Virus record (IMG/VR): IMGVR_UViG_3300000563_000005
Location: 10,143-47,196 of that record
Origin: a virus
Reading direction: 5' to 3' (one strand)
Length of the DNA: 37,054 nucleotides
Positions 3,307 to 28,505 of this stretch are shown here, one piece after another. Positions within the stretch are counted from its first letter, which is position 1; every line of letters begins with the position of its first letter. The notes below the pieces were generated by a model that ran no database searches, was not told the origin of the DNA, and worked only from the letters and a program-made list of their open reading frames with translations. Made by a program: the position numbers and the translations under genes.

Positions 3307-3308
3307 GC

Positions 3309-3347
3309 TAAAAAAAAGAGCCCGAATAACCGGCGGGCCCTTTTTTT
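3309..3347. terminator. Two-way intrinsic terminator
   Basis: An A-run, a GC-rich stem (GCCCG with CGGGC, extended by flanking A:T pairs across one mismatch) and a T-run lie between the convergent ends of the polymerase gene and the 469-aa gene. The A-run and T-run flank both sides, so it can end transcripts from either strand. Confidence 0.85.
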
Positions 3348-3352
3348 ACTAC

Positions 3353-4762
3353 TTACCTTAAGCCATGACTATCAAGAGTAGACTTAAGGTTTCCTTTTGA
3401 CTCATGTTTTGGCAAACGTTTTCGGAACAGGCTATTCTTCAACAAATTTTTCATAACTTGTCGTGTCGACTCAATAACCTGTGTACCGGTCGTGCCTTCA
3501 GGTATATATATACAAGTACCCACGTTACGGCGCACGTCGAACTCCCTTTTTTCATTGAAAGTTCGTACCACCTGCTGTGCCACAATTTTGGACAGAAGGG
3601 GTAGAGTCTTTCGATTGGAAAACCACTCTATTGCTTCATTATTCAGCTCACCATCCACAGTAAACATATATATTCCGTTGGCTATTAGCCTTGAATGATA
3701 ACCTGAATTTGCCCGCAATGTTTTGTAAGTTGAGTCCTGGTTCACTCTATTACCTATAAGGCTCTTTAGCACGTTGATCCAGGTCTCGACCTCGTCACGA
3801 TCTGCTATGGGATCTAACCCTCTTATTGGAAGAAAATCTTCGTGGGTTAGTTGTTTGTTAACAAGGCTTGCTAGATGTAGTCTTTTTGTTAATCTAATAC
3901 CTAAGTGCTTATCCACTGCAAGATATCCTAGCAGATTCTTTTCCCACTGCCTAAACTCAGCAGGTACTTTGGCCTCCCAACGATCATACTGATCGCTGAG
4001 CCACTGAGTATATGCCAACACGTCATAATTATCTTCAGCAACGGCTCTCGCCCTTCTAGCAGCTACTGGGTTAAGATAAACTTTAACCCTCAAGTTTCTT
4101 CCTGCCAACGCGTTGCCAATTGCTTCTTCCGCCCCTGTAACAAAGCAAAGTTTGTTGGCAAAGATAGTTGCCGTTATTTCATCGCCGTGTTTCAGGTAGG
4201 AGTGATCTAAAACATCTGAAATGCGTGTAGGGTGTGTAATACGTGCATCGCCCCCAAAAGAAGACAGTGGTACATTTGTGGCGATAAAATATTCGCCATA
4301 TTCGTCGGTTTTTATGGTTGCTTTGATTTTGGTACCATCCTTAAGTTGGATGGTGCAGAACTTGCGTCCTCGACGAATAACAGTTATTGGTGAGGTTTTG
4401 TATCCCAATTTTGCTAAGAGATCTCCAACCTTGGCAATACAGTTTGGTCCAGTTGAAACCTCTTTCATTAGATTACGTAGGGCCTGTGCTTCAGGAGATG
4501 GCTCGATCCAACCTAGAATATTAGTTGTCTCAAGCATCAGAGCCACGTTACCTATAGTCCTAGCACTAGCTGCAAACGGTGTAAGGTGGCCCACAACCAC
4601 TTTTGTCTGTCCCCGCTTATAGGGCACATATTTCCCCAAAACGGGGTCGAAAAAATGTCCATCTTTGTGCGCTTGTTCTTCCATTTCGTCGTACACTGAC
4701 TTATTAATGGTGCGCTGTTGCGGATGGTTATCCGGTGAATTTACAAATGCTTTATGTGACAT
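3353..4762 (-). CDS. Phage protein of unknown function, 469 aa
   Basis: I do not recognise this protein. The ATG is preceded by AAGGAT at a good distance. There is no signal peptide, membrane segment or nucleotide-binding motif. The N-terminal 60 residues are hydrophilic and rich in charged residues and His. A middle part (about 130-240) alternates short beta-type stretches (FCTIQLKDGTKIKATIKTD). The C-terminal half is helical and basic. It faces the polymerase gene across a shared terminator and is the last gene of the minus-strand run from ThyX. A virion or replication-associated protein would fit the size, but nothing in the sequence decides it. Confidence 0.85.
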   Translation of the reverse strand: MSHKAFVNSPDNHPQQRTINKSVYDEMEEQAHKDGHFFDPVLGKYVPYKRGQTKVVVGHLTPFAASARTIGNVALMLETTNILGWIEPSPEAQALRNLMKEVSTGPNCIAKVGDLLAKLGYKTSPITVIRRGRKFCTIQLKDGTKIKATIKTDEYGEYFIATNVPLSSFGGDARITHPTRISDVLDHSYLKHGDEITATIFANKLCFVTGAEEAIGNALAGRNLRVKVYLNPVAARRARAVAEDNYDVLAYTQWLSDQYDRWEAKVPAEFRQWEKNLLGYLAVDKHLGIRLTKRLHLASLVNKQLTHEDFLPIRGLDPIADRDEVETWINVLKSLIGNRVNQDSTYKTLRANSGYHSRLIANGIYMFTVDGELNNEAIEWFSNRKTLPLLSKIVAQQVVRTFNEKREFDVRRNVGTCIYIPEGTTGTQVIESTRQVMKNLLKNSLFRKRLPKHESKGNLKSTLDSHGLR

Positions 4763-4812
4763 GTATATCCTTCCATAATTTATTTGGAATTATGCCAACT
4801 TCACTGTCACCC

Positions 4813-5076
4813 TCACTTATTTAATTGTTTATAAATATTTTTGACCTGAGATTTGTTTAGGTCAATTGCAAAAATTTTGCTCTTCCGATGTGCGTATACA
4901 TATCGGAAGATAGGTTCTTCAACTTTATTCTTATACCAGGAATAAATTGAAATTGGTATGTATGGGATAATAAAATCCACTATCCGCACCAATATAAATA
5001 AATATGCGGGCATATCTTGGCACATAATACCATTTTTATTACCCTCATCATCGTATAAAAAACTATAAGATCTCAT
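4813..5076 (-). CDS. Small membrane protein, 87 aa
   Basis: The start ATG overlaps the stop of the kinase-like gene upstream (ATGA), implying coupled translation. A hydrophobic stretch at about residues 23-45 (AYLFILVRIVDFIIPYIPI) looks like one membrane span. A basic tail (RKSK...NKSQVKNIYKQLNK) follows, probably cytoplasmic. Function unknown. Confidence 0.7.
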   Translation of the reverse strand: MRSYSFLYDDEGNKNGIMCQDMPAYLFILVRIVDFIIPYIPISIYSWYKNKVEEPIFRYVYAHRKSKIFAIDLNKSQVKNIYKQLNK

Positions 5077-5465
5077 AGGGGCCTCAGTTGAATGTGAAAA
5101 CGTGCTTCCATCTCATCGATGGTTTGTTTAGGAACATTATGTTCGGATACGCCTTTATGGCGATTCTCTACAATTATAGAAAAAGCCCGATGCCCCCATT
5201 CTTCAGCGTACTTAACATATTTATTTACTTCTGATTCTCGGGTAGATGTGTTAGATACTACCACGCTGTTTCCTTGCTTTAATTGTTCAGTCACCTTGCT
5301 AAAACACCATGCATGCGCATCTGATACTTTACTTGGATCAAAATTATAATTTCCATCTTTATCAGTGTGGTACATGTCTGCTTCAAAGTAAGGTAGTCCG
5401 AACATCTTGGCAAGCGTGGTCTTCCCAGAGCCAGGAAGACCACGTATAATAATTAGATCTGCCAT
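5073..5465 (-). CDS. AAA_33-type P-loop kinase (polynucleotide-kinase-like)
   Basis: Residues 9-17 (GLPGSGKTT) form a Walker A loop. The following FEADMYHTDKDGNYNFDPSK, the HAWCF helix and GNSVVVSNTSTRESEV match the kinase fold shared by T4 polynucleotide kinase and NEDD4-binding-protein-2-like ATPases (AAA_33). Family knowledge suggests phosphorylation of a nucleic-acid 5' end, but the substrate is not shown. At 130 aa it is a stand-alone kinase domain without the phosphatase of T4 Pnk; a HAD phosphatase-like gene lies at 16874-17380. It sits between two unknown genes, two bases from the upstream gene. Confidence 0.85.
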   Translation of the reverse strand: MADLIIIRGLPGSGKTTLAKMFGLPYFEADMYHTDKDGNYNFDPSKVSDAHAWCFSKVTEQLKQGNSVVVSNTSTRESEVNKYVKYAEEWGHRAFSIIVENRHKGVSEHNVPKQTIDEMEARFHIQLRPL

Positions 5466-5466
5466 A

Positions 5467-5940
5467 TTAAGGTAAGATTGGTGGTCCTAGATAAAACTTC
5501 TGGATGTACACTAGATCTCCTCCATCCATTCTTAGTTTGAATAGAGACCCATTATGATCCAAAAGTTTAGCGTGTGTTTGCCAGATAGGATTGAACAGAA
5601 CAAAGTGTTTATGTTTTTCTATTCTTTCCTTATCTTCCGGAAATTTCTTGAATAATTTATAATTCTTTTCGTCAAGAAGCATAAATTCTTCTTTTTCGTA
5701 CTCGTCCAAATCAGCTAGATAACAATACTCCTCCAAATCTGGATTAGTAGTTATTATCATGCCATTCCCAATTTCGTGTTTTTCCACTAGGGTGGTAACA
5801 TCATTGGCCTCATCAATTACTTTATATTCATAAGTTTCCGGATTAAGCTCAATTAAATAGTACCTATCCCATATCAATTTTCGTATGCTCCCAAATAAAC
5901 TCGTCATCCAAAATTGTTCCATTCTTTGGGCTGACGGCAT
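5467..5940 (-). CDS. Phage protein of unknown function, up to 157 aa
   Basis: Acidic protein with many aromatic and Glu/Asp residues and no motif I know. The first ATG (5940) lies 77 bases inside the upstream gene and has no ribosome binding site. A later start is likely: Met12, or a TTG near 5879 preceded by GGGAG, giving RYYLIELNPETYEYK as the N-terminus. The body alternates beta-type stretches (YYLIELN, GMIITTN, KHFVLFN, DLVYIQKFYL) with charged helices. It ends two bases before the kinase gene, in the same transcription unit. Confidence 0.75.
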   Translation of the reverse strand: MPSAQRMEQFWMTSLFGSIRKLIWDRYYLIELNPETYEYKVIDEANDVTTLVEKHEIGNGMIITTNPDLEEYCYLADLDEYEKEEFMLLDEKNYKLFKKFPEDKERIEKHKHFVLFNPIWQTHAKLLDHNGSLFKLRMDGGDLVYIQKFYLGPPILP

Positions 5941-6838
5941 TTATTTTAAAGTTTTTCCATTTTGGAAATCCGCCCGTTTTCTTCTCCTGTCGATTTAACT
6001 CTCCGACATTCACTGGAGTATATGGAACAAGCTTATCGTCGTAGATATTGGAATTACACACAAGTACATGTTGCTGCACTGAGTTACGAAGTTTACTCAC
6101 AACTATGATTCTCGCATAGTCCGGAGCTTTCATAAACAGGTTCTGTGCCAACAGATGATCATACCCATGCCGATACTTTTTCATCTCAACCATGAGACTC
6201 TTTGGCGTCATGTTTATTACTTCGTATTCAATGTCATCGATTGAGCTTAACAATACCGGCGATATCTGCTTTAGATTATCTTGTAACCAAGAAACTTGGT
6301 CTAACAGATAAACCTGAGCTGATTTTATTTTATCATCCGGATATTTGTCCACAAACGGAGTTGGAAACTCGTTTATGAAGTTACTCAATAACGAAGGAGT
6401 GTTATTTTTGTAATACAGATATCTATTTGTATTCCATAACTCCAATTCAGCTAATAAGATTTTGTGATTCGGAGTAGAATCAAATATCGATTTCCGGGTA
6501 GCTGGATCCAGCAAGGCTATTGCAAACACATCGATTGGATTTATATCGTATGTTGCACGATGTATCACATTTGGATACCAATCAGGATTCTGCATCACAA
6601 ACATATATGCCTGTGTTGCTATGGATGCCTGTCCATTTTTATCCTCCTGACGAAATAGCCGCTGATGGCCGAATGTTACTATACTACGATCACGTAGCAC
6701 CCGGTGTGCCGGTACTCCCGGCTCAAATAGTACTTTACCTTCCGGCGAAATATTTAAGCCGATAGCGCACTCTCCGTCACCTAATTCGATTTGGAGATTT
6801 TGCGCCCTTGCCGCGGACATGTCGATTAAGTTTATCAT
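5864..6838 (-). CDS. Phage protein of unknown function, 324 aa
   Basis: Not recognised. Its ATG overlaps the stop of the ClpA-like gene (ATGA), so the two are probably translated together and may act together. The N-terminal part (to about 60) is beta-rich (CAIGLNISPEGKVLFEPGVP). The middle is helical with conserved-looking aromatic residues (NPDWYPNV, LELWNTNRYLYY). No membrane or signal segment. An adaptor or substrate partner for the neighbouring unfoldase is a reasonable but unproven idea based only on the coupling. Confidence 0.85.
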   Translation of the reverse strand: MINLIDMSAARAQNLQIELGDGECAIGLNISPEGKVLFEPGVPAHRVLRDRSIVTFGHQRLFRQEDKNGQASIATQAYMFVMQNPDWYPNVIHRATYDINPIDVFAIALLDPATRKSIFDSTPNHKILLAELELWNTNRYLYYKNNTPSLLSNFINEFPTPFVDKYPDDKIKSAQVYLLDQVSWLQDNLKQISPVLLSSIDDIEYEVINMTPKSLMVEMKKYRHGYDHLLAQNLFMKAPDYARIIVVSKLRNSVQQHVLVCNSNIYDDKLVPYTPVNVGELNRQEKKTGGFPKWKNFKINAVSPKNGTILDDEFIWEHTKIDMG

Positions 6839-8967
6839 TTTATTACAATTTCTCCTTCTATTAATTCAATGAAGACCTCGTTGAGTTCTTCTTCCGTTTC
6901 GAGTAACTTATCAGCGAGTTTAGTTTCAATTAGATCCTGGATCACTCGCCTTAATGGTCTCGCCCCATATTTATCGGACCATCCTTTATCTACACAATAT
7001 TTCCGAGCTTCCTCAGAAATATTGATTTTAATTTTTGGATTCAAATCGACCAACAGTTTATCGAATATTAATCCGATATGCTCCATAGTTAACTTGTTAA
7101 AAAACACAATATTATCCACCCTATTTATGAACTCAGGTTGGAATGTATTTTCTACATCTTTGTCAACCATTTCTTTTACTGTCTCCTTATGGTCGCCAAA
7201 ACCAATCGTGGTCTTAGTCAGGTTACGGGCTCCAATATTACCAGTCATTATAATAATGGTATTCTGGAAGTCAACTTGTCTTCCCGATGAATCCGTTAAG
7301 TGCCCCTCCTCTAATATTTGAAGTAATACGTTATATATTTTAGGATGAGCTTTTTCGATTTCATCGAACAGAACCACTGAATAAGGTCTACGTCGAACTG
7401 CTTCGGTAAGTTTACCGCCTTCTTCGTAACCAATATACCCGGGAGGCGCTCCGATTAAATTACTTATCGTAAACTCTTGAGAAAATTCTGACATATCAAA
7501 TGCCAGAAAATGCTTTTCAGAATTGAACATCAACTTAGCTAATTGCTTAGCCAAATAAGTTTTACCTACACCGGTTGGTCCAAGAAATAGGAATGATGGG
7601 GCCTTTCGAAGCTGACTCGTCTTAACGCGAGCTCTTTTAACAGCTTTACTTAGTTCCCTAATTGCTTCCTCTTGACCTACAACCAATTTGTTCAAATCTT
7701 GCTCGAGCGTTTTTAGCTTTTCCCTGTCCTTTGCGGAAAGCTTATCCACCGGGATTCCTGTCATTGTTGCTACAACTCTTTGTACCACCGCTTCATCAAC
7801 CACTGCAGTTTTATTTAGTTTTGCTATACTTCCAGCTTCGTCTATCACGTCAAAACCCTTATCTGGAAAATTCTTATCCGTGATATAGCGCGCGCCTAGG
7901 TATACAACCTCTTCCAGGGCTTTAGGTGTAAACTGCAGATCATGAAACTTCTCGTACGAATAAACCGTATTTGTAAGAATCTCCAGGGTTTGGTCTTCGT
8001 TCGGCGGTTCTACGTATATCTTTTGGAACCTGCGCTCCAGCGCGGCGTCCGTCTCTATATGCTGTTTATATTCACGAGCGGTTGTTGCGCCTATGCAACG
8101 TATTTCTCCACGAGCCAGATACGGTTTTAATATATTAGCCGTATCTCCTTGGCCTTCCCGGTTACCGCTACCCACGATACCGTGAATCTCATCTATAAAC
8201 ACAATATAATCTGGATTACCGCGGAGATCCTGTATAACCGACTGCAATCGTTGCTCGAACTGTCCTCGGAATACTGCTCCGGAAATTAGGGCATTTAAGT
8301 CCAACATAAATATACGTTTATCCCGTAGAGGTTCCGGAACCTGTTTAGATACAATACGTTGCGCAAGTCCCTCAACTATGGCGGTCTTGCCGACGCCAGC
8401 TTCACCTATGAGTATAGGATTATTTTTGCGCTTTCTTCCAAGTATTTGAACTATGCGTTCCAATTCTGTTTCCCGATCAAATACCGGATCCAATTGATTT
8501 TGTTCAGCAGCTTCTATTAGATCTGTGGAGAAATGTTTAAGTGCGCCAGATTCCTCTTTGGGCTTTGGGGGCATAAATTCCTTACCAAAATAACCTGCCA
8601 TCCGTAAATGACGGTATGCTACGGTGTCCTCTTGGCTTATTATAGCCTCAAACAAATCATTTGAGGTAACTTCAGAACCCTGTGAAGATTCTTCGGCACG
8701 CTTTAGTATCAATGAGGCGCTTTCCCCGAATGACACTGCCTGCATCTGAAATCCTGGAGTCGGATACTTTAAATTCTCAACCAAACTAGATTCCAGTTTT
8801 GCGATGTTGTCAATTTTGGATATCAGAGTTTGGTGAGCACTGCATTTATCGGTTTGCACGATGGCTAATAATAAATGCGTACTTTCAATTCTGTTTTTAC
8901 CGTACTCTATACAGATCGTCTCAACCTGTTGCATAACTTCCTGTAGTTCTGACGAAAATGGTTTCAT
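6835..8967 (-). CDS. ClpA/ClpC-type AAA+ unfoldase with putative ClpP-docking loop
   Basis: Hexameric protein unfoldase of the Clp/Hsp100 class, 710 aa. Residues 1-140 resemble the Clp N-domain. D1 has Walker A GEAGVGKT (188-195), pore loop VFRGQFE and Walker B VFIDE (256-260). D2 has Walker A GPTGVGKT (463-470), pore loop GYIGYEEGG, Walker B VLFDE (to 536) and sensor 2 GARPLRR (668-674). The D1-D2 junction is short, without the coiled-coil middle domain of ClpB or ClpC, as in ClpA. An IGF tripeptide at 588-590 sits between NLTKTT and [11 protein letters not shown], exactly where ClpA has IGL and ClpC has VGF to dock ClpP. No clpP or clpS is seen nearby, so it may use host ClpP. Coupled to 5864-6838. 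Confidence 0.95.
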
Positions 8968-9128
8968 TTTTCAGCTTTCTGTAAATATAACAATAGAACA
9001 TACCAATAAGCCTTGGTATTATCCTTTTTTAGTTGATTTAATGATTTAAACGGAGCAATTGGCTCCGAAGGAATGTCAACGATACTAAGATTGTATTTCT
9101 TTAGTATCTTGGGAATTGTTATCTTCAT
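8964..9128 (-). CDS. Small basic protein, 54 aa
   Basis: Reading starts best at the ATG at 9128 (MKITIPKILKKYNLS); a TTG seven codons earlier is possible. It overlaps the end of thyX by 44 bases in another frame and its stop overlaps the start of the ClpA-like gene. Lys-rich N-terminus and a short hydrophobic stretch (AYWYVLLLYL) near the C-terminus. Function unknown; the tight coupling on both sides supports a real gene. Confidence 0.55.
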   Translation of the reverse strand: MKITIPKILKKYNLSIVDIPSEPIAPFKSLNQLKKDNTKAYWYVLLLYLQKAEK

Positions 9129-9921
9129 ATTTATCCAATTCTTCAAATGAAGACGGGAAATACTTTAGTGTAGCTTCGTATGTCCAAGGCATTTTCTCCT
9201 TGAATATCTTTAGTATTTCGTACGCGTAATCCCGTATCTCTTTTTGTGCATGTGATTCACAGCGCAAAATAAAGAAATTCATCAAAGATCGAGCGTTAAC
9301 CGTCCACGTAAATTGTGTATAATAAGCCGTTCCCAATACTCCACGCGCCAACTCCTTCGCTAATCCGGCTTCTTTTAACCAAGTATATATCCACTGTTGT
9401 CGGTACAACTCATGTTCGTATACCTGCCATAATTTTACTCTTTGATGATTATTACGATAATTTATTTTATAGAATGCATCATCATATATAGGATGATGAA
9501 ATGGAAATTCAAAACTAGCCAGGTCTGCGTCTACGCTGCCTTGCTTGTTTTCTTTTGATTGCGGTCTATATTTATCTGGACGGTGGAAATTATCAGCAAT
9601 TTTTTCTGTATATCGTCCAGACATCGTATTAATACTTGACCAACGATGCTTTACCCATTGAAAATGTACGTACAGCGGACATCTTATCCTGAACTGGAAT
9701 ACCGCGGCTTCTAGCGGTGTGCCGTGCTCGTGTTCTAAAAGGAAGTGTAATAATTTTCTGTCTTTTTCCGGACCTTTTAGATTTCCGGCATATGATGATC
9801 GTGCGGCTGCGACTGCTAGTTCATCCAGCGTTTTAGCGCACCCTTCATCTGTTTCTTCGGACACCAATGAGCCTACGAACTTAATCCAGCCATCTGTGCC
9901 TATTTTAATTTTTTCACTCAT
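9085..9921 (-). CDS. thyX: Flavin-dependent thymidylate synthase ThyX
   Basis: Makes dTMP from dUMP using FAD, NADPH and methylene-tetrahydrofolate, securing thymidine for phage DNA synthesis. The ThyX signature (RHRxxSxNExSxRY) is present as KHRWSSINTMSGRY at about residues 92-105: the first Arg is Lys and the Glu after Asn is Thr, while the central HR, S, N, S and RY are kept. The C-terminal core has GVLGTAYYTQFTWTVNARSL and HAQKEIRDYA, the substrate- and FAD-binding region of the family. Its length of 278 aa is somewhat above the common 220-250. It opens the unit that runs into the Clp-type gene, just after a terminator. ThyX is frequent in phages whose hosts may or may not use ThyA. Confidence 0.95.
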   Translation of the reverse strand: MSEKIKIGTDGWIKFVGSLVSEETDEGCAKTLDELAVAAARSSYAGNLKGPEKDRKLLHFLLEHEHGTPLEAAVFQFRIRCPLYVHFQWVKHRWSSINTMSGRYTEKIADNFHRPDKYRPQSKENKQGSVDADLASFEFPFHHPIYDDAFYKINYRNNHQRVKLWQVYEHELYRQQWIYTWLKEAGLAKELARGVLGTAYYTQFTWTVNARSLMNFFILRCESHAQKEIRDYAYEILKIFKEKMPWTYEATLKYFPSSFEELDKYEDNNSQDTKEIQS

Positions 9922-9937
9922 GTTAATTTTTATTAGT

Positions 9938-9966
9938 TAAAATAAAGGGCCCCTAGTTGGGGCCCC
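9938..9966 (-). terminator. Intrinsic terminator upstream of thyX
   Basis: On the minus strand a perfect 7-8 bp stem of G and C (9947-9966, loop of about five bases) is followed by TTTATTTT. It ends the transcript of the 208-aa signal-anchor gene and separates it from thyX. Confidence 0.75.
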
Positions 9967-9970
9967 ATAA

Positions 9971-10597
9971 TCAATATGTAAGGATGATGGCCCTTGAAAT
10001 ATCGGCCATTGCGTTATGTATATCATCTTCGTACATACGTTTTGAAGTAGCGGCTGACATAACACCATAATCTTCGATTATGGCAGATAACATTCTGCCA
10101 CTATAATGATCGTGAACATACGTACGTATTGACCCATATTTGGTTCTTTCCACATGAACCTTATCGCCAAATGTGGAATCCAACTGCTCCAAAAATGCGC
10201 GGTTATATTTAGTAAACGCGGGCCCATCCCCCTGTATCACCCTTGCGGCCATTGCAAATCCAGTACCTACGACCTTATCATTATAAATAAATGCTATAAA
10301 AGCGTAGTTACTATAACGATATTTGTCCGAAAAAATAATGACGTCTAGGTACCCATTGAACACTAAATGCTCTAACTCAACTTTGCTATCCGAGGGCATT
10401 CGCTCAAGAACACTTACTGCATGATTAAGCGATGAACCATATGGTATGGCTGGAAATAGACTTTCCAATGGCTCTTCGTCTGTTTGAACAGCTGAACTAC
10501 CGGATGTATCGATAAAATGCCCAACCGCCGAGATCACTAGAAGTGTGGCGATCAAGGACATTAAGATTCCTATAACCGTCTTTTTAGTCCCGGTCAT
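9971..10597 (-). CDS. Signal-anchored periplasmic protein of unknown function, 208 aa
   Basis: A very strong ribosome binding site (AAAGGAGGT) precedes the ATG. Residues 7-26 (TVIGILMSLIATLLVISAVG) form one membrane span after a short basic start (MTGTKK), so the rest likely lies in the periplasm. The soluble part has mixed beta and helix (LVFNGYLDVIIFSDKYRYSN, FIAFIYNDKVVGTGFAM) and no Cys. It is a single-gene unit: a promoter-like motif stands at 10641-10657 and a terminator at 9938-9966. Being separately and strongly expressed suggests a specific role, perhaps at the envelope, but no family is recognised. Confidence 0.85.
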   Translation of the reverse strand: MTGTKKTVIGILMSLIATLLVISAVGHFIDTSGSSAVQTDEEPLESLFPAIPYGSSLNHAVSVLERMPSDSKVELEHLVFNGYLDVIIFSDKYRYSNYAFIAFIYNDKVVGTGFAMAARVIQGDGPAFTKYNRAFLEQLDSTFGDKVHVERTKYGSIRTYVHDHYSGRMLSAIIEDYGVMSAATSKRMYEDDIHNAMADISRAIILTY

Positions 10598-10640
10598 ATC
10601 AACCTCCTTTTTGTTGGTGAATAAATTTACCTTACACTAA

Positions 10641-10657
10641 TCTTATACCATAATTTA
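10641..10657 (-). promoter_or_regulatory. Putative extended -10 promoter motif, copy 1
   Basis: On the minus strand the 17-mer TAAATTATGGTATAAGA lies 44-60 bases before the start of the 208-aa gene. An identical 17-mer stands at the same distance before the zinc-binding gene at 27387-27671. It contains TGnTATAAG, an extended -10, but no -35 match, so it could be used by host sigma70 or by the phage polymerase. Confidence 0.5.
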
Positions 10658-10900
10658 AGTAAATAGTTCCGTCATGACATCAGCTATATCCGTATTTGAT
10701 ACACCAAGTTCATGTAGGTTTTCAACTATAGCTTCACAATAGGGATCTATTTCTGCTATGAATTTATCCGGATTGATTTGGTTCAGAATCGTTATGGGGT
10801 CCGTCGTTGATTCGAACCGCACCTTTGATATCCACAGATCCCATATCTGGTTCTTGTAGGATTTTGTCTCTAATATCTTCTTTTTCGGCACGAGTGGCAT
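10655..10900 (-). CDS. Hypothetical small protein, up to 81 aa
   Basis: The ATG at 10900 lies 137 bases inside the upstream 208-aa gene. A GTG at about 10821, preceded by AAAGG-like bases, would give a 54-aa protein (VRFESTTDPITILNQ...). The C-terminal half is a convincing acidic helical sequence (YCEAIVENLHELGVSNTDIADVMTELF). The overlap means the start is unsure. It is the last gene before the promoter motif at 10641-10657. Confidence 0.5.
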   Translation of the reverse strand: MPLVPKKKILETKSYKNQIWDLWISKVRFESTTDPITILNQINPDKFIAEIDPYCEAIVENLHELGVSNTDIADVMTELFT

Positions 10901-11390
10901 AAAATAGTTCTCCTATAAACAAGCGTATAAGTTCGATTAGAGTTATTGGTGCGAACGGAACCACTACACCATCCTTATCTCTTAGCGCGTGGTCAATAAT
11001 GATTTCTACATTTTTGAAGGTAGGTACAAGATCATAATGAAGAGCCCACCAAGCTGCGTCTGTTTCGCCTACCATATGCAAATGCATGCCAAATTTAGAG
11101 AGTGATCTTCTTACCTTTATTCGGTCAAACTTTGCAGGTTGCGCAATTTCGTTAAACTGACTCTCAAGATCTCCGATATGATTTTGTAATAGTATAGATG
11201 AAAGTATCAAGTCCAATACTTGATCATCCCTGTATATAACATTATACAATCTTTTAGCTGTAACATTCTCTAGCTGTACAGGTTCAGTTAAAAAGGGGAG
11301 AATAGTATCAAATTGTAACTTGCTGTCTTCATCTCCCCTTGGATAATATATAATATTACTATCAGTAATTTTTACTATATTATGCATCAA
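10764..11390 (-). CDS. Phage protein of unknown function, 208 aa
   Basis: Start overlaps the stop of the TM/coiled-coil gene upstream (ATGA), placing it in the transglycosylase unit. Mostly helical with a Trp-Trp pair (TDAAWWALHYDLVP) and hydrophobic segments too broken up to be clear membrane spans. The last 40 residues are polar (GPHNDSEPNQSG) and overlap the next gene. No family recognised. Confidence 0.75.
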   Translation of the reverse strand: MMHNIVKITDSNIIYYPRGDEDSKLQFDTILPFLTEPVQLENVTAKRLYNVIYRDDQVLDLILSSILLQNHIGDLESQFNEIAQPAKFDRIKVRRSLSKFGMHLHMVGETDAAWWALHYDLVPTFKNVEIIIDHALRDKDGVVVPFAPITLIELIRLFIGELFYATRAEKEDIRDKILQEPDMGSVDIKGAVRINDGPHNDSEPNQSG

Positions 11391-12211
11391 AACCTCACAT
11401 GATATCCGACATTGAATGTGGAGTGGTGAAGGTCGTATGTGAATATATAGTTTCTGTAATATAACCCACCTTGTATATTCACAAACGTGTTATTAAACGC
11501 AATGCTACCAGCAGGCACTCCAGCGTATAATCCAGCATGGATTCCATACTGTCGCACAGGTCGTGCGGGTGCGGGCGCTGTATGTAGCAATCTAAATGCT
11601 TCGGGATCCATTTGATGAGATGCCGACAAATTGACTCCCGGTACTCCGGATACTGTACGTATCCGCCATATACCATCTTCATCACGACCCAACTCACTGT
11701 ATATAGGTATAGGATCTATATTGATAGATATGTCATAATAAGATGCGGGTAGGTTGTCAACATAGGCTCGCGTATATCCAGTATAATGTATTATATTTCT
11801 AGAGCCTGAAAAGTCAATCTGTAAGTATGCTCCCGTGGTATCTTCACCACTTATGGCATCGACAAATTGTTTGTCGTGTAAGCTATCGATCTCAGCTTGT
11901 AGTTCAGATGCAATACCTATCCAACGCTGTGCGCGGCTTCTTTCAGCGTTATAGCGATTAACCATGTCATTTAGATCACTATTTAAATCAGTAACTCGAA
12001 CTGCCAACGTATGTATGCTGTCGGCTTTCTGCTCGAGTTGTTCATTATACCACGCTTCATTCTGCGCTATCTGGCTCTCCGCAGCTTCCAATTCTGCGCG
12101 AGCTGCGTCACGCTGGGATTTAAAAGTACTAGCTGCTATTGTTAACGATACTATCATCAAAGCAACAGCAGCTATAACAAGTCCCGATGATCCTAATAAA
12201 TTTCCAATCAT
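11387..12211 (-). CDS. TM/coiled-coil protein with beta-barrel-like C-terminus (possible spanin-type)
   Basis: Residues 10-28 (GLVIAAVALMIVSLTIAAS) are a membrane span. Residues 30-115 are an Ala/Glu/Gln-rich coiled coil (RAELEAAESQIAQNEAWYNEQ), interrupted once. The C-terminal 60 residues are short amphipathic strands rich in Tyr and Gly ending in a terminal Phe (NVGYHVRF), like the last strand of an outer-membrane barrel. The glycosyltransferase fusion at 25466-27340 ends in the same HVRF. The gene follows the transglycosylase gene by two bases. A protein anchored in the inner membrane and reaching the outer membrane, next to a wall-cutting enzyme, recalls spanins, but this is inference. 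SD AGGAGAGAA. Confidence 0.8.
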   Translation of the reverse strand: MIGNLLGSSGLVIAAVALMIVSLTIAASTFKSQRDAARAELEAAESQIAQNEAWYNEQLEQKADSIHTLAVRVTDLNSDLNDMVNRYNAERSRAQRWIGIASELQAEIDSLHDKQFVDAISGEDTTGAYLQIDFSGSRNIIHYTGYTRAYVDNLPASYYDISINIDPIPIYSELGRDEDGIWRIRTVSGVPGVNLSASHQMDPEAFRLLHTAPAPARPVRQYGIHAGLYAGVPAGSIAFNNTFVNIQGGLYYRNYIFTYDLHHSTFNVGYHVRF

Positions 12212-12213
12212 TG

Positions 12214-12984
12214 TTATTTCTCTCCTGTGTATACATACGTGAATAGGTAAGGTTGTTCCCAGCTATCCAAGTAATTTTTAATTCTCATTACTTCACGCAC
12301 ATAGTTACGAGTTTCGCGATATGGGGGTATCCCTCCAAAACGCTGAACCGCTCGTGGGCCAGCATTATATGCAGCTAATGCCAAAGGTATGCTATTATAT
12401 CTATCTAGCATTGCACGTAAATATGCCGTTCCTCCCATAATATTTTGTTGGGGATCCCATACGTCCAATACTCCCACCTCCATGGCGGTGATATCCATTA
12501 ATTGCATTAGCCCCTTTGCACCCTTATGCGATTGGGCCAACACATTTGCATTGGATTCCACATATATGATTGCCTTGATTAAGTTGGGCTCAATATTATA
12601 CGTGTGTGAAGCTTGACAAATATACGGTAAGTATGTATTTAAACGATTCATAAAAACCACCTCTCTAACGTCGTACCTATTAAACTCGAATTCGTTTTGG
12701 GTTAAGTCCCTAAGAGCGTTTACCGCATCGAGTATTTCGGTAAATGAGGTGGACGTTTCTAATACATGCTGTATATTTTTGATTGTCTGGACAGTATCGA
12801 TTTCTCGATATATCTTGTCCGCAAAAAATAAGTGTACTCCATAAATATTACCGTTGAGATAAAATACCCCAGGTGGTGGAGTAACTTCCGGCTTTGGTTT
12901 AATTTGTGAAAATAGCAATAGTCCTAATATAAGAACTATCCATCCAAAAATGACGACTGTCTCTACTTTAGTAGGCTGTCTCAT
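12214..12984 (-). CDS. Membrane-anchored lytic transglycosylase (SLT domain)
   Basis: Residues 9-27 form an N-terminal anchor. From about 125 the goose-lysozyme-like SLT fold is clear: IKAIIYVESNAN with the catalytic Glu143, HKGAKGLMQLMDITA, NIMGGTAYLRAML and LALAAYNAGPRAVQ. The enzyme cleaves peptidoglycan by forming anhydromuramyl ends, in the periplasm. The anchor may act as a signal-arrest-release segment, in which case it would be a phage endolysin, or the protein may be a virion or envelope enzyme. Its start overlaps the stop of the 41-aa basic gene and it is followed at two bases by the TM/coiled-coil gene. Confidence 0.9.
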   Translation of the reverse strand: MRQPTKVETVVIFGWIVLILGLLLFSQIKPKPEVTPPPGVFYLNGNIYGVHLFFADKIYREIDTVQTIKNIQHVLETSTSFTEILDAVNALRDLTQNEFEFNRYDVREVVFMNRLNTYLPYICQASHTYNIEPNLIKAIIYVESNANVLAQSHKGAKGLMQLMDITAMEVGVLDVWDPQQNIMGGTAYLRAMLDRYNSIPLALAAYNAGPRAVQRFGGIPPYRETRNYVREVMRIKNYLDSWEQPYLFTYVYTGEK

Positions 12985-13106
12985 TTATTTTTCCCCTTTA
13001 TTGTTTTTGATTTTCGTTGCTGTTTACGCTTACCAGCAAATTTTTTAGCTATACCGGCCTTCTGCAAAGCCGCCTGTAACCCATCTTTATAACCTTTAGG
13101 CTTCAT
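12981..13106 (-). CDS. Basic microprotein, 41 aa
   Basis: A short frame with its own ribosome binding site (AGGAGAAAG) reads MKPKGYKDGLQAALQKAG and then a Lys/Arg-rich tail (FAGKRKQQRKSKTIKGKNK). It overlaps the end of the RNA ligase gene and its stop overlaps the start of the transglycosylase gene. The strong positive charge suggests binding to nucleic acid or membrane surfaces; function unknown. Confidence 0.7.
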   Translation of the reverse strand: MKPKGYKDGLQAALQKAGIAKKFAGKRKQQRKSKTIKGKNK

Positions 13107-14196
13107 CACTTTCTCCTAGCAACTCCCGTTGCGTCCTTAAAGTAAATTTGGATAAGTCGACATTACCAGTCTTCGATAATGAAAAAGCAATGCCTCTATC
13201 AATAGAATCAGAGTACACGTTGAGTATATGCTCAGCCTTTTCTTTTTGACTGGCGTCTTCTGGAAGTTGTTGTAAGGTTTCTTTGATACTTTCAACCTTT
13301 TTCAAATAGTCCTCATACTTTCGATATAGATTATCTGATAAACGAAAAGCTTCTTCTAACGATTCAAAATCATATAATTCTTTTAATGTTTCTTCAAAAG
13401 TATTTTTATCTGGACATCCTTGATTTATAAACAACTCACGTATACGCTTTTCAGTTAACTCTGCTTTGGCACGATGCTTTGCCAAATACCAATCAGACTT
13501 AACTTTTAAAATCTTCTGATCATTGTCATAGTATAGGCAGTATCCCTCTATACCTTCAACAACCAGTAAATATTTGATTAACTCCGATAAAGATTCAAAC
13601 TCCTGATTACATATTCGAGGTCTTGGTACGTCTAATTCATTCGCCAATACATCTAGCTCTAGTTGGTTATAGAGTGAGTAGTCCTCATGCCTAATGGCAC
13701 CTACCAGATATATGTCAGGTTCCATAGATTTAATTATTATGGTATTCCTTGGAGAAAGCCATTCATAAATATACGAAATATTTTGCTTACCTTCAAGTGC
13801 CCCGGGATATTTTTTGGATAATATATCGATTTCATCTCCGTTTGGATGATATCGTGCATTTAATTGTCGACGTGTTCGTATAATATCGGTATCTTTATAC
13901 TTACTGACTATTAAAGCGCTACCATCCAATTTCTCTATTATATTAACCCCCTCCAAATTACTTGGTGGTATTGGGAATAGATCGCGCCTTTCTCCTAGAT
14001 TAAAGAATTTCGGAAATGATGCTGATACTAGCTCACCATTTTCATTCCACAAACTTGACCTAAAGATCAGATTATCGGGTGTCCAAAACTCAAAGCTTAA
14101 CAGTCTTGGATATGTAAGATATAGCTTATGTCCATTGAGGTAATGTTCCCGTACGTGAAATATTGACCGATCAACGTCTTTCAGATTAATTCTCAT
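13096..14196 (-). CDS. RNA ligase, T4 Rnl1-like
   Basis: ATP-dependent RNA ligase that joins 3'-OH and 5'-phosphate ends through enzyme-AMP and RNA-adenylate steps. Visible nucleotidyltransferase motifs: I, EKLDGS (adenylated Lys near residue 89, the KxDG box); IIIa-like, ISYIYEWLSPRNTIII; IV, EGYCLYY; V, KVKSDWYLAKH, which is typical of the T4 Rnl1 group. The helical C-terminus (240-366) fits the Rnl1 tRNA-recognition domain. The ATG at 14196 is chosen because GAGGA precedes it; an ATG four codons earlier lacks a site. In T4, Rnl1 acts with Pnk to mend tRNA cut by host anticodon nucleases; kinase- and phosphatase-like genes are also in this window. Confidence 0.92.
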   Translation of the reverse strand: MRINLKDVDRSIFHVREHYLNGHKLYLTYPRLLSFEFWTPDNLIFRSSLWNENGELVSASFPKFFNLGERRDLFPIPPSNLEGVNIIEKLDGSALIVSKYKDTDIIRTRRQLNARYHPNGDEIDILSKKYPGALEGKQNISYIYEWLSPRNTIIIKSMEPDIYLVGAIRHEDYSLYNQLELDVLANELDVPRPRICNQEFESLSELIKYLLVVEGIEGYCLYYDNDQKILKVKSDWYLAKHRAKAELTEKRIRELFINQGCPDKNTFEETLKELYDFESLEEAFRLSDNLYRKYEDYLKKVESIKETLQQLPEDASQKEKAEHILNVYSDSIDRGIAFSLSKTGNVDLSKFTLRTQRELLGESDEA

Positions 14197-25005: not shown

Positions 25006-25237
25006 GCCACATTGTTTTATAATCCCGGACAAATTGCTTATAATAGTCTAAAGTAGCGGACCACTTTGTATGTGTATTAATAATAGGTGTTGTTGGAAAT
25101 ACGTGTGCTAAAATATATATTCGTTTAGCGTACTTTGATGCACTAATGATATCTCCACGATCTACCGCTGTTTTTAACAGATAAACGTACTCACTCATAT
25201 TATTTTCTTTTCGAGTCTTGTGTATAATTATGTCCAT
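24968..25237 (-). CDS. Hypothetical protein, up to 89 aa
   Basis: Two starts are possible: the ATG at 25237, overlapping the upstream stop, or Met14 at 25198 (MSEYVYLLKTAVDRG). Helical, with no motif. It overlaps its downstream gene by 38 bases. Confidence 0.6.
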   Translation of the reverse strand: MDIIIHKTRKENNMSEYVYLLKTAVDRGDIISASKYAKRIYILAHVFPTTPIINTHTKWSATLDYYKQFVRDYKTMWHGDKTTLRKKIS

Positions 25238-25413
25238 CTATCCATCCATGATCCTATAAGATATCCAACACCCAATATTGCACCAATAATCAATACAAAT
25301 GGGAACACCACTGTAAAATGAACTACGAACATTATGGCCGTCCATATTATAACTAACATCAACGCTAATAGAATTACTCCTGATAAGGATTTCACTAACC
25401 ATTCCGGTAACAT
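25228..25413 (-). CDS. Two-span membrane protein, 61 aa
   Basis: GGAGGTAGT precedes the ATG. Two hydrophobic spans fill most of the protein (SGVILLALMLVIIWTAIMFVV and FPFVLIIGAILGVGYLIG). A holin would have this size and shape, but the gene lies far from the transglycosylase, so this is only a possibility. It begins a unit just after a strong terminator. Confidence 0.75.
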   Translation of the reverse strand: MLPEWLVKSLSGVILLALMLVIIWTAIMFVVHFTVVFPFVLIIGAILGVGYLIGSWMDRWT

Positions 25414-25423
25414 ACTACCTCCA

Positions 25424-25452
25424 GATAAAAAACCCCGCGGGTGAGCGGGGTT
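25424..25452 (-). terminator. Strong intrinsic terminator
   Basis: Perfect 8-bp stem AACCCCGC/GCGGGGTT (25431-25438 with 25445-25452) with a six-base loop and a run of six T on the minus strand. It ends the glycosyltransferase transcript. Confidence 0.9.
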
Positions 25453-25465
25453 AGTTTAATTTAAT

Positions 25466-27340
25466 TTAGAACCTTACATGAATGCCGCCACCTACATATA
25501 ATCTTTCGATTCCAGTAAAATCAAAATTATTATGATAGTCCGCATTCACATAAAATATAGACACTCCAAATAACATACCGTAATTATAGTGCCCCAACTC
25601 ATTTGCAGCCAGATGGCTTTGGGCGCGAATTATACCATAACTTGCGCGCACATTGGCTACAGCTGTTATAGTTTTGTACCTAGCTAAATCCTGTATAAAA
25701 TCCAACGTATAAACAGTATTTAGACGGGTATGTGGTTCTACTGAATAATACCCTGCACCAACCATTATACTAGGAACTCCGTAGCCAGCACTCTGTCCAA
25801 AAGCAGTATACCCATACCGCGCTCCAACTCGCGCTGTATAATTCCCAACCCAATGTTCGTACCGTGCAAAGCCCAGAAGCCGATTATTATCACGGATACC
25901 TAAGTCAAGATGCCAGTTTCCAAGATATGCTCCAACATTCATTTGCGTGTAATGTGTATATGTAAACTGAACATACCCGGGACTATATCCCAAATATAGT
26001 TCGTGGTGTATATTGCGCTGGTTATCCGGAAGATCTATTATCTGATTAGCCTTGTAATCCAGTGTATATTCCCCCTGTGCTGATGCACTCAACGCAATAA
26101 ATAGCCCCAAGAACATGGAAATAGATATTCTCTTGGTAGGTTTCCACGCCGACTTTATAAATCTTTGTTTAATCCATACAAAGAAAGCAGCTATTCTTAG
26201 ATGCATTTGGAGTAACGTATAAAATGGCATCAAAAATACTGGGTACAAATAGTATTTTACTCTTCGATATACTAATAATTCTAGCCCCACGTATAACAGA
26301 TAAACCAAGGCCAATACGCTCCAAGTGCCGGTTAAGGCTAATACCCATACACTCAGTATCTTGATTGGATCAGTCACCAAAGTATATAGTAGATAAGCCA
26401 TTTCATGTCGTAATCGTATCGAGACATTCCTCCCAAACAATAAGCGAATTGACATTGGCAGTTTGTGCCATAAACCTGGCCACCAACCGAATACTCGCTG
26501 TTTTAGGAACCCTTTTAATGTGGTGGGAACCTCGGTGTGAACGTTTTCGTTAACAAAAATCACACGACCTTTTAAGAATAGCTCTATCAGTGTTCTTTCC
26601 AAATCTTCTCCTGCAAATACCCCCGTATGGAGTTCGATCTGTTCAAGCAGTCGCTTAGTTTTAAATAAACCACTCGCGCCACTAACACATTCTACAGATC
26701 TTGTTTTGGAGGCAAACACCTTACCAATCAACATACTTTTGCCGTATTCATTCGTTTGAAGAGCATGTAAAACTTTTTTGAATATGTTTTTTGTTTTAAT
26801 TGGCATTGGCGATACATTAAATGCTATCGCGTCAGCCTCTCCGGTTGCCAGTAATGAAACAGGCATGTTGCTTACAACAATCTCAGTATCACTATCCACC
26901 AAAAAAGTGTAATCATATGTGACGTATTCCAGCCCCTTGTTTATCGCTGTAACCTTACCCACATTCTTGTGAAGTTTTATGAATAGCACCTCAATATCAG
27001 AATTTTTAATTTTGACGGTGTATATGTGTTTTTCATCGTCATGCTCTAATAGAGATGCATTGGTTACTTCGGGAAGGGATGCAACTACATCTAACATATC
27101 TTCTTTACTACAGTCATCCACCAATATGATTTGTTTCGCGTGTTGACTTTCCAGATCTATGCACGATAAGAGTGTGCTCGCAACGACTGGGTCATTATAC
27201 ACGGGAATAACCACTGAGAATGGATAAGTGTTGGGCGGAATTTCTAGTTTTTCCCTTTTTGACAGTGTTTCTATAAATATTTTAATACCATCAACTAGGA
27301 TTATAACCAGAAATACCCATAAAAATATGGATAATTCCAT
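25466..27340 (-). CDS. Family-2 glycosyltransferase fused to a probable outer-membrane beta-barrel
   Basis: Residues 1-23 are a membrane span. Residues 40-290 form a GT-A family-2 domain: FSVVIPVYND, IILVDDCS, FLVDSDTE with the metal-binding DxD (149-151), AGEDLERT with the catalytic acid, and KQRVFGWWPG in place of QxxRW. Two to four spans follow (315-395). At 405-422 a second signal-like segment appears (ISMFLGLFIALSASAQGE) with an AxA-type cleavage site. Residues 424-624 are amphipathic strands rich in Tyr and Gly, ending in GGGIHVRF with terminal Phe as in outer-membrane barrels. In E. coli a GT2 (YaiP) and a barrel (YaiO) are separate neighbouring genes; here one frame holds both types. 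Single-gene unit with its own terminator. Sugar donor and product unknown. Confidence 0.88.
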   Translation of the reverse strand: MELSIFLWVFLVIILVDGIKIFIETLSKREKLEIPPNTYPFSVVIPVYNDPVVASTLLSCIDLESQHAKQIILVDDCSKEDMLDVVASLPEVTNASLLEHDDEKHIYTVKIKNSDIEVLFIKLHKNVGKVTAINKGLEYVTYDYTFLVDSDTEIVVSNMPVSLLATGEADAIAFNVSPMPIKTKNIFKKVLHALQTNEYGKSMLIGKVFASKTRSVECVSGASGLFKTKRLLEQIELHTGVFAGEDLERTLIELFLKGRVIFVNENVHTEVPTTLKGFLKQRVFGWWPGLWHKLPMSIRLLFGRNVSIRLRHEMAYLLYTLVTDPIKILSVWVLALTGTWSVLALVYLLYVGLELLVYRRVKYYLYPVFLMPFYTLLQMHLRIAAFFVWIKQRFIKSAWKPTKRISISMFLGLFIALSASAQGEYTLDYKANQIIDLPDNQRNIHHELYLGYSPGYVQFTYTHYTQMNVGAYLGNWHLDLGIRDNNRLLGFARYEHWVGNYTARVGARYGYTAFGQSAGYGVPSIMVGAGYYSVEPHTRLNTVYTLDFIQDLARYKTITAVANVRASYGIIRAQSHLAANELGHYNYGMLFGVSIFYVNADYHNNFDFTGIERLYVGGGIHVRF

Positions 27341-27367
27341 TCATTTTTCCCCTTATTATTATAGTGA

Positions 27368-27397
27368 ATAAAAACAGCCACGTGCTTTACGTGGCTG
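27368..27397 (-). terminator. Strong intrinsic terminator
   Basis: Perfect 9-bp stem CAGCCACGT/ACGTGGCTG (27375-27383 with 27389-27397), a five-base loop and GTTTTTATT on the minus strand. The stop codon of the zinc-binding gene lies inside the stem. Confidence 0.9.
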
Positions 27398-27671
27398 CAG
27401 TTGCTATATCCATAACATACCCACCTGCCTCTAATGCGGTAGATATACAAACATCACAGATTAGTCCTTTTTTTAGTTTTAGAGGCGACACTACCGGACT
27501 AACCTCCAATAGATAATTCTTGTACAATCTCGAGCCATGAGCTACAAAGATCGTATGTGAATCATCTAATATACCTGAACAGCCGTATCCCTGCATATCG
27601 TTCTCTTCCTCGGTGGGAAGAACGCTGGGAAACATGGCTCCGCAGGTGTTACATAAAACCATGCGCGGCAT
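27387..27671 (-). CDS. Zinc-binding protein with CxxC pairs, 94 aa
   Basis: AGGAGG precedes the ATG. CNTCG at 7-11 and CDVC near 73-76 form a split zinc site. Another Cys in GYGCSG and the central IFVAHGSRLYKNYLLEV look structural. Single-gene unit: promoter-like motif at 27712-27728, terminator at 27368-27397. Function unknown; separate control suggests a regulator or dose-sensitive product. Confidence 0.8.
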   Translation of the reverse strand: MPRMVLCNTCGAMFPSVLPTEEENDMQGYGCSGILDDSHTIFVAHGSRLYKNYLLEVSPVVSPLKLKKGLICDVCISTALEAGGYVMDIATAAT

Positions 27672-27782: not shown

Positions 27783-28457
27783 TTATCGATCACGTTCTCT
27801 TGACCTGGACGGAGTATTTCTTGTTGTTTCACGAGATCTACTTTCTTCACGCGAACGCGAAGGTGTCTGTCTTACCTCAGGTTGTCTTGTCCTGCTTGGT
27901 GTCTGTCTTACCTCAGGTTGTCTCGTTCTGCTAGGAGCTTGCCGTGTTTCAGGCTGTCTTGTCCGGCTTGGCGTTTGTCTTGTTTCCGGCTGTCTTGTCC
28001 TGCTTGGTGTCTGTCTTACCTCAGGTTGTCTTGTTCGACTTGGTGTCTGTCTTACCTCAGGTTGTCTTGTCCTGGTAGGTGCAGGTCTTGTCTCGGGCTG
28101 TCTTACTCTGGCCGGAGCTTGCCGTGTTTCAGGTTGTCTGGTGCGTGTTGCACCAAATGTGCGCACAGTCTGCGGTCTGTATACAAATGCAGACTGAGGA
28201 CGATAATGGTATGGTCTATAATACCATCCGTAATAATACGGCCGGTACCAATAAGTAACCCTATAAGGGTAATACCAATAGTACGACGTGTGCCAATAGT
28301 AACTCGGATAGTATCCATAGAAAAATACCCGATGTGGCACGTGTTGTACGTGGTATACGTGTGTCCTCACGGTAACCGGTTCGCGAACACCGACTTTAGT
28401 GTAGACACATCCTGAAAATAGCATTACTGCTATTAATATTAACATTATCTTTTTCAT
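27783..28457 (-). CDS. Tyr-rich, repeat-containing lipoprotein, 224 aa
   Basis: Signal peptide MKKIMLILIAVMLFSGC with a lipobox (LFSGC, lipidated Cys17) sends it to the cell envelope. Residues 40-95 are extremely rich in Tyr, Trp, His and Pro (YYPSYYWHTSYYWYYPY). Residues 105-205 are about eight 12-residue repeats (RTRQPEVRQTPS with E/V or A variants), strongly basic and Pro-rich, ending in an SR-rich tail (PSRSRERDR). An extended, positively charged envelope protein could bind wall, LPS or nucleic acid; none is proven. GGAGGT site and a consensus sigma70 promoter point to strong expression by host RNA polymerase. Confidence 0.85.
   Translation of the reverse strand: MKKIMLILIAVMLFSGCVYTKVGVREPVTVRTHVYHVQHVPHRVFFYGYYPSYYWHTSYYWYYPYRVTYWYRPYYYGWYYRPYHYRPQSAFVYRPQTVRTFGATRTRQPETRQAPARVRQPETRPAPTRTRQPEVRQTPSRTRQPEVRQTPSRTRQPETRQTPSRTRQPETRQAPSRTRQPEVRQTPSRTRQPEVRQTPSRSREESRSRETTRNTPSRSRERDR
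27862..28145 (-). repeat. Tandem 36-bp coding repeat, about eight units
   Basis: The DNA repeats every 36 bases, in frame with 12-residue units, with point differences concentrated at the variable codons (Val/Thr, Thr/Ala). Copy number could change by slippage or recombination without breaking the frame. Confidence 0.85.
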
Positions 28458-28476: not shown

Positions 28477-28505
28477 ATTATAGCAATAACCGTGCCAATT
28501 GTCAA
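28477..28505 (-). promoter_or_regulatory. Consensus sigma70 promoter
   Basis: On the minus strand TTGACA (28505-28500), 17 bases, TATAAT (28482-28477): both boxes and the spacing match the ideal bacterial housekeeping promoter. The start codon of the lipoprotein is 20 bases past the -10 box. The -35 box overlaps the stop codon of the frame upstream. Confidence 0.9.

Follow-up and report, generated by a model that had tools for sequence, protein, structure and literature searches.

The 37,054-nt stretch of DNA analysed here, hereafter the window, spans positions 10,143 to 47,196 of the IMG/VR record IMGVR_UViG_3300000563_000005, a viral sequence of 48.7 kb. On the minus strand of the window, to which all coordinates below refer unless stated otherwise, a gene at 25466–27340 runs from ATG to TAA in one continuous coding frame and specifies a 624-amino-acid protein that joins a membrane glycosyltransferase of family 2 (GT2) to a part of outer-membrane barrel type. 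An earlier note on this DNA had described such a fusion; its coordinates proved right, the strand, which it did not name, is minus, and the one-protein reading was borne out. A codon preference derived from 13 further genes in the window put frame 0 first in all 15 sliding windows that cover the gene, without a break at the junction, and third-position GC is 0.37 before the junction vs 0.34 after it. The plus strand carries 42 stops over the same interval, and all 15 ambiguous bases of the record lie outside the open reading frame (ORF). The frame is the same throughout, with no sign of the frameshift between the two parts that the note had considered, and by coding criteria the fusion is no artefact of the reading frame. 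Within the sequences searched, the gene is known from a single metagenomic copy.

The protein opens with a membrane helix (residues 5–23; 27272–27328), after which basic residues mark the presumed cytoplasmic side. The GT2 domain (residues 36–310; 26411–27235) contains D76, a DxD at 149–151, an ED at 245–246 and a degenerate QxxRW motif. It is followed by a hydrophobic region that we read as a membrane hairpin (residues 317–355; 26276–26392) and by a weakly hydrophobic stretch between two basic segments, possibly a re-entrant or interface element (residues 362–390; 26171–26257), so that membrane helices flank the domain on both sides. PF00535 of Pfam matches residues 42–154 (E = 2.6e-13; 50.7 bits against a cut-off of 23.3), and D76, D149, D151, E245 and D246 are all conserved in GT2 alignments. 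The NCBIfam model of PgaC/IcaA (TIGR03937) aligns with residues 33–381 (E = 2e-10), its 40.2 bits lying below the cut-off of 422.3. A C-terminal W-x4-R tail, as in the IcaA-like protein of one sequence filed as a phage (L006), is present; W399 and R404 are invariant in an alignment with three GT2s whose ORFs stop there or shortly beyond. Judged by these features, the GT2 part is complete, reaching over residues 36–404 up to the usual tail, in keeping with the earlier description of a complete GT2 domain with membrane spans. An alignment-based AlphaFold2 model had a confidence score (pLDDT) of 70–81 in the GT2 core, and the PDB entries ranked highest in a structure search with it were eleven hyaluronan synthases, ten being of Chlorella virus. 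Given a mean pLDDT of 46 and a whole-chain root-mean-square deviation of ~10 Å, the best match (E = 1.2e-10; TMq 0.38) supports the fold class rather than its details. Taken together, these data support a membrane enzyme of the hyaluronan or poly-N-acetylglucosamine synthase kind.

Directly after R404 the chain continues as ISISMFLGLFIALSASA↓QG, in the full context KPTKR-ISISMFLGLFIALSASA↓QG. The internal signal peptide predicted here, KPTKRISISMFLGLFIALSASA, occupies residues 400–421 (26078–26143), with the cut expected before Q422. The segment ending in ASAQG that had been noticed earlier is thus the only signal-peptide-like site found by a pattern search of the whole fused protein; the pattern itself places the site at G423, and the A-x-A rule moves the cut to after A421 (ASA↓Q). 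The same residues serve as the GT2 tail and as the basic start (n-region) of the signal, so that a simple lost stop between two genes fails as an explanation. Lysines and arginines number three in residues 24–38, three in 356–365, six in 389–404 and none in 1–4, from which, by the positive-inside rule, we infer that the first three segments are cytoplasmic and residues 1–4 lie outside. This charge pattern agrees with one N-terminal helix, one C-terminal hairpin and a tail on the cytoplasmic side, an arrangement that would feed the signal into Sec the right way round, provided that residues 362–390 do not span the membrane. The basic residues ahead of the signal make it likely to function, so that cleavage follows as the natural interpretation, and the internal cut suggested earlier as a way out of the two-membrane problem thereby gains in plausibility. 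Bradyrhizobium japonicum FbcH, a polyprotein of cytochromes b and c1 that is cleaved at an internal signal peptide, likewise joins an inner-membrane protein to an exported one; unlike the product in question, that of FbcH is neither an outer-membrane protein nor phage-borne.

The part beyond the cut (residues 422–624; 25469–26077) comprises 203 residues, close to the 200 noted before, with no cysteine, 16.7% F/W/Y, 11.3% G, 14 K+R and the end HVRF. It shows 12 alternating-strand peaks vs 7.3 ± 1.8 in shuffles (z = 2.5; top of 16 stretches tested), by a weak measure on which real YaiO barrels score lower than Q422–F624. A logistic classifier, with 18 YaiO domains as positives and 343 other ORFs as negatives, was applied to sequences outside the positive set; it gave 0.975 for this part and 0.024 for the GT2 part, and none of the 343 negatives reached 0.975. 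The negatives were ORFs of 150–450 amino acids without membrane helices from loci of at most 50% GC, after removal of listed duplicates and RNA polymerase loci; the top scorers among them include at least seven YaiO frames and the L011 barrel discussed below, which makes the test stricter. Other barrels and candidates scored 0.97 (L010), 0.96 (L009), 0.95 (L038), 0.88 (L008) and 0.80 (L011), with middling values for L212 (0.54) and L211 (0.53) and a low one for L223 (0.23). A signal peptide, amphipathic strands, a terminal aromatic residue and a barrel-like composition thus coincide, and on this sequence evidence the C-terminal part is very probably an outer-membrane barrel.

Which barrel family it belongs to is another matter. 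The earlier comparison with E. coli yaiO does not extend to family membership: no Pfam or NCBIfam match to YaiO (PF19413/TIGR04390) was obtained, our own iterated YaiO model gave E = 0.39, and hhalign returned a probability of 0.98%, the highest among 25 sequences, with one window protein slightly ahead in raw score. Homology to the secreted proteins of L008, L010 or L011 was likewise rejected, the alignments being short and at chance level. Searches of 398 and 395 genomes of two phyla, sets without an internal positive control, gave no match to the barrel part.

Pairs of a GT2 and a barrel are common in bacteria. We inspected the best 80 of at least 246 bacterial relatives of the GT2 part among 596 stretches, with 3 kb flanks asked for (two loci, L109 and L035, lack a closed GT2 ORF). 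The iterated YaiO model found a barrel within the fetched stretch in 18 of these 80 loci, on the same strand in 12 and on the opposite strand in six, and none of the 18 is titled Gram-positive or archaeal. Of eight hand-picked genomes, two of them chosen for a barrel already noticed there, six contain one PF19413 match each, and all six matches overlap the GT2 locus; E. coli was the one control genome with a YaiO match. The neighbours cited in the earlier note are real: E. coli K-12 has the order yaiS (putative deacetylase), yaiP, yaiX (a pseudogene split by IS2) and yaiO, and the pairing turns out to be far more general. Like the phage gene, the E. coli locus holds a GT2 and a small outer-membrane protein in one stretch; unlike it, E. 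coli encodes the two separately, alongside a putative deacetylase and a pseudogene for an acyltransferase, and the phage barrel has no YaiO match. The same GT2 class adjoins an outer-membrane barrel in a Stenotrophomonas locus (L114: HEAT, GT2, TPR-YaiO) and a Saprospiraceae locus (L038: deacetylase, GT2, TPR-barrel). Such bacterial loci differ from the fusion in having separate genes, a TPR part and often a deacetylase or HEAT protein.

Characterised systems offer further parallels. PMC8669469 describes E. coli NfrB and NfrA, responsible for the phage N4 receptor glycan, as an inner-membrane GT2 and a glycan-secreting outer-membrane beta-barrel whose genes overlap by 14 nt. NfrBA is host-encoded and unfused, unlike the phage protein, for which Pfam reported neither an MshEN domain in the GT2 nor a TPR in the barrel. 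The likeness to PgaC/IcaA lies in the span of the GT2 match and in the tail; the difference from the PgaC/PgaA system lies in the low score, and no PgaB was found in the record. Chlorovirus PBCV-1 A098R, according to PMC5408694, is an early membrane GT2, a hyaluronan synthase whose glycan fibres cover the infected cell. It shares with the fused protein a viral origin, and Chlorella virus synthases are the best structural match to the GT2 part; unlike the fusion, however, this synthase operates in a eukaryotic host that has no outer membrane, and it has no barrel.

Three GT2 scans, counted by hand, revealed membrane GT2s in at least 20 viral contigs (L008–L011, L018–L021, L211–L216, L219, L222, L223, L225, L232 and L276). 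Among the matches listed, eight of the 20 (L008–L011, L211, L212, L223 and L225) have an adjacent secreted protein on the same strand, mostly barrel-like; the pairs in L008 and L009 were found by reading ORF lists, the automatic neighbour filter having missed both. L223 and L225 are near-duplicates, L009 sits beside an integrase and may be host DNA, L018–L021 and L213–L219 may include bacterial or Gram-positive sequence, and the secreted neighbours in L018 and L020 were not counted as barrels. A small protein gene overlaps the GT2 start in L008 and lies 94 bases behind the GT2 in L010. Two of the eight pairs come with a polysaccharide deacetylase, by a weak match in L011 and a clear one in L223. 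Since GT2/secreted pairs recur in viral contigs, the special feature of the window is the fusion, not the pairing. In L223, a GT2, a small secreted protein, a polysaccharide deacetylase and a GH16 hydrolase lie near one another on one strand (3456–7248), an arrangement that looks like a mobile exopolysaccharide cassette. On the 13.8 kb contig L211, a GT2 and a secreted barrel-like protein (991–5073) immediately precede the gene of a family B DNA polymerase.

Homologues with the same fusion, for which the earlier note had proposed a search, did not emerge from INPHARED, the bacterial relatives, 125 GT2 frames or 50 related contigs. None of the 125 other GT2 frames (duplicate contigs included, the window's own frame not among them) carries the GT2-barrel fusion, and the GT2 matches in the best 80 bacterial relatives never pass residue 403 of the fused protein. 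Three of the 125 frames (L075, L084 and L095) were flagged for a signal-like segment past the GT2 match followed by more than 100 residues. L084 and L095 were rejected, their C-terminal halves being sulfatase-like by eye and not barrel-like, and L075, of the same length and setting, was not counted as a barrel fusion. Together with L108, these are GT2 proteins of ~1,140 amino acids from Bacteroidota that extend far beyond the GT2 at the C-terminal end, each encoded beside a convergent YaiO gene. INPHARED returned three matches, two of which were rejected as phage homologues, L006 for its ica operon and L005 for its resemblance to mislabelled bacterial DNA. Exact-peptide scans of viral contigs with the fused protein and the barrel found nothing, and a search of the open-licence PubMed Central literature, over top-ranked titles and the openings of abstracts, brought up no GT2–outer-membrane barrel fusion or phage cassettes of this sort.

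We propose that the gene is a one-gene version of the common module of synthase and outer-membrane exporter, cleaved by signal peptidase and coating the infected cell with glycan, and put the probability of this reading at roughly 0.55. Enzyme class, barrel type and coupling are supported by the findings above; for topology, cleavage, membrane insertion, export, early timing and purpose, we infer the following course. Translation would yield a polyprotein whose first 404 residues form an inner-membrane GT2 synthase with its catalytic domain facing the cytoplasm, taking a nucleotide sugar and moving the growing chain across the membrane by way of its own helices. WKPTKR, the basic tail, would remain cytoplasmic and provide the n-region for the signal peptide behind it, Sec would carry the remainder across the inner membrane, and host signal peptidase I would cut at ASA↓Q. 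The freed 203-residue part could then be inserted into the outer membrane by the barrel assembly machinery (BAM), where the glycan would be let out or anchored. Expressed from an accessory region near an early-type promoter, the protein would give the infected cell a glycan coat, which would most simply hinder further phage adsorption; the superinfection blocking suggested earlier would be a plausible purpose.

Several observations weigh against this proposal. QxxRW is degenerate, reading KQRVFGWWPG at 280–289 with one residue inserted and the R of RW replaced by G, Q being kept; the motif is intact in the five GT2s aligned with the fused protein, for instance as KQRMRW. As the PF00535 score is also low beside the 77–102 bits of seven viral-contig GT2s scanned, activity may be altered or lost. 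Residues 422–624 match no Pfam family, PHROG or PDB sequence, and the AlphaFold model suggested in the earlier note, for which no alignment of these residues was obtainable, left them unfolded (pLDDT 31), with neither a barrel nor a confident alternative, a result that is uninformative without relatives. Should residues 362–390 in fact cross the membrane as a helix, the tail would come to lie in the periplasm and the signal would face the wrong way. The record ORFs scanned include no TPR, deacetylase or nucleotide-sugar enzyme, unlike many bacterial versions, and a strong terminator stands between the nearest perfect sigma-70 promoter, described below, and the fused gene.

The failure of AlphaFold2 to give a barrel and the missing barrel family match would also suit a periplasmic beta domain, tethered to the inner membrane by an uncut helix, that serves the synthase as a scaffold, as a modifying part or in setting chain length. 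Accessory periplasmic partners have precedent in YbcH, which PMC8669469 presents as an auxiliary, non-essential partner of NfrBA. We consider this unlikely, however, in view of the ASA↓Q site, the single signal-like segment, the C-terminal F and the barrel-like composition, and since related GT2s adjoin outer-membrane-type proteins. The degenerate QxxRW, the weak GT2 score and the lack of copies in 50 related contigs would be explained if the gene were a relic, decayed or domesticated, or had arisen by chance fusion without glycan export. The GT2 would then have ceased to polymerise, and what counts would be the outer-membrane part alone, a surface protein comparable to the small Lom-type outer-membrane proteins of phages. 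The retained D76, D149, D151, E245 and D246 and the normal codon usage throughout nevertheless speak against a relic, making it decidedly unlikely.

Separate translation of two proteins, from an internal start at Met409 or from an upstream non-ATG start, can point to Met409 as the only in-frame ATG near the junction; yet no good ribosome-binding site lies at a suitable spacing, and a start there would leave MFLGLFIALSASA, a very short signal without a basic n-region, which renders this improbable. Finally, an assembly or sequencing error may have erased a stop between two neighbouring genes. That the gene exists as a single metagenomic copy and that two genes are the usual arrangement would fit, but the shared frame, the GT2 tail doubling as the signal n-region, the absence of ambiguous bases from the ORF and the continuous codon score make such an error highly improbable.

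If the cleaved synthase-exporter reading is true, one gene suffices to equip an infected Gram-negative cell with both a new glycan for its surface and an exit of the glycan's own, and a single internal signal peptide divides a polyprotein between inner and outer membrane. Uncharacterised loci of the yaiP-yaiO type would then be linked to phages, similar GT2 and secreted-protein pairs occurring in several unrelated viral contigs. As a tentative generalisation, which we hold to be possible but doubtful, Gram-negative phages may carry self-contained exopolysaccharide cassettes (a membrane GT2 and an outer-membrane exporter, sometimes with a deacetylase) as a prokaryotic counterpart of the chlorovirus hyaluronan synthase, condensed here into one self-partitioning polyprotein with its halves in two membranes.

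With respect to its setting, the fused gene is preceded by a ribosome-binding-like AAGGGG before the ATG (27349–27354), as are many genes of the window region by such sites, and is framed by strong intrinsic terminators just upstream (27374–27398; z = −4.3) and just downstream (25431–25452; z = −4.0). The next gene upstream (27387–27671) encodes a 94-amino-acid protein with two CxxC pairs, zinc-ribbon-like by eye and assigned to no family. Beyond it lies the gene of a 224-amino-acid lipoprotein (27783–28457), rich in Tyr and Arg, with an LFSGC lipobox recognised by eye and TRQPEVRQTPSR-type repeats of the form TRQPE(V/T)RQTPSR. The ribosome-binding sites and this lipoprotein suggest a Gram-negative host with Shine-Dalgarno starts. 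A Cor-type exclusion protein was considered and rejected, as the match to phrog_1119 covers only the first 20 residues (E = 0.021). Neighbour genes searched in 32 related contigs gave one weak match and none, and the lipoprotein had no homologue there. Downstream, a 61-amino-acid hydrophobic protein of no family, possibly with two membrane helices, is encoded at 25228–25413; a link to the fused gene is putative.

The promoter mentioned above, a perfect sigma-70 sequence (TTGACA-17-TATAAT, with TG before the −10 element), lies at 28477–28505. The record has just one other such promoter, ahead of the RNA polymerase gene, whereas the present one precedes the lipoprotein gene; this distribution hints at early transcription of the fusion region by the host polymerase. 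A TATAAT at 27358–27363 was discarded as the gene's own promoter; a transcript from it would begin at the ribosome-binding site itself, which makes read-through or a different promoter the likelier source.

The RNA polymerase gene (window 1–3306, plus strand; record 6327–13448) is a 2373-amino-acid ORF in which beta and beta' are fused, containing an insertion that resembles an intein and a few ambiguous bases; in the related contig L207, a 2023-amino-acid ORF (4363–10434) occupies the matching place. An 85-residue core of the polymerase retrieved at least 80 related viral contigs (L126–L205; 7–210 kb) at 55–69% identity and no close relative among named phages, and an exact-peptide scan of viral contigs with the polymerase found nothing. 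In 50 of the 80 related contigs, several of them fragmentary, the fused protein had no match, its own record serving as positive control; the fused gene is therefore accessory. The best polymerase match was dismissed as a phage relative, being a piece of an Acinetobacter chromosome. Two sequences filed as phages are in fact bacterial chromosome pieces, L006 with its ica operon and L125 with an Acinetobacter ribosomal-protein and rpoBC region. Left of the window, the minus strand of the record encodes a reverse transcriptase (RVT_1; record 529–1422) and a pair of VWA and MoxR ATPase proteins (record 2760–5506).
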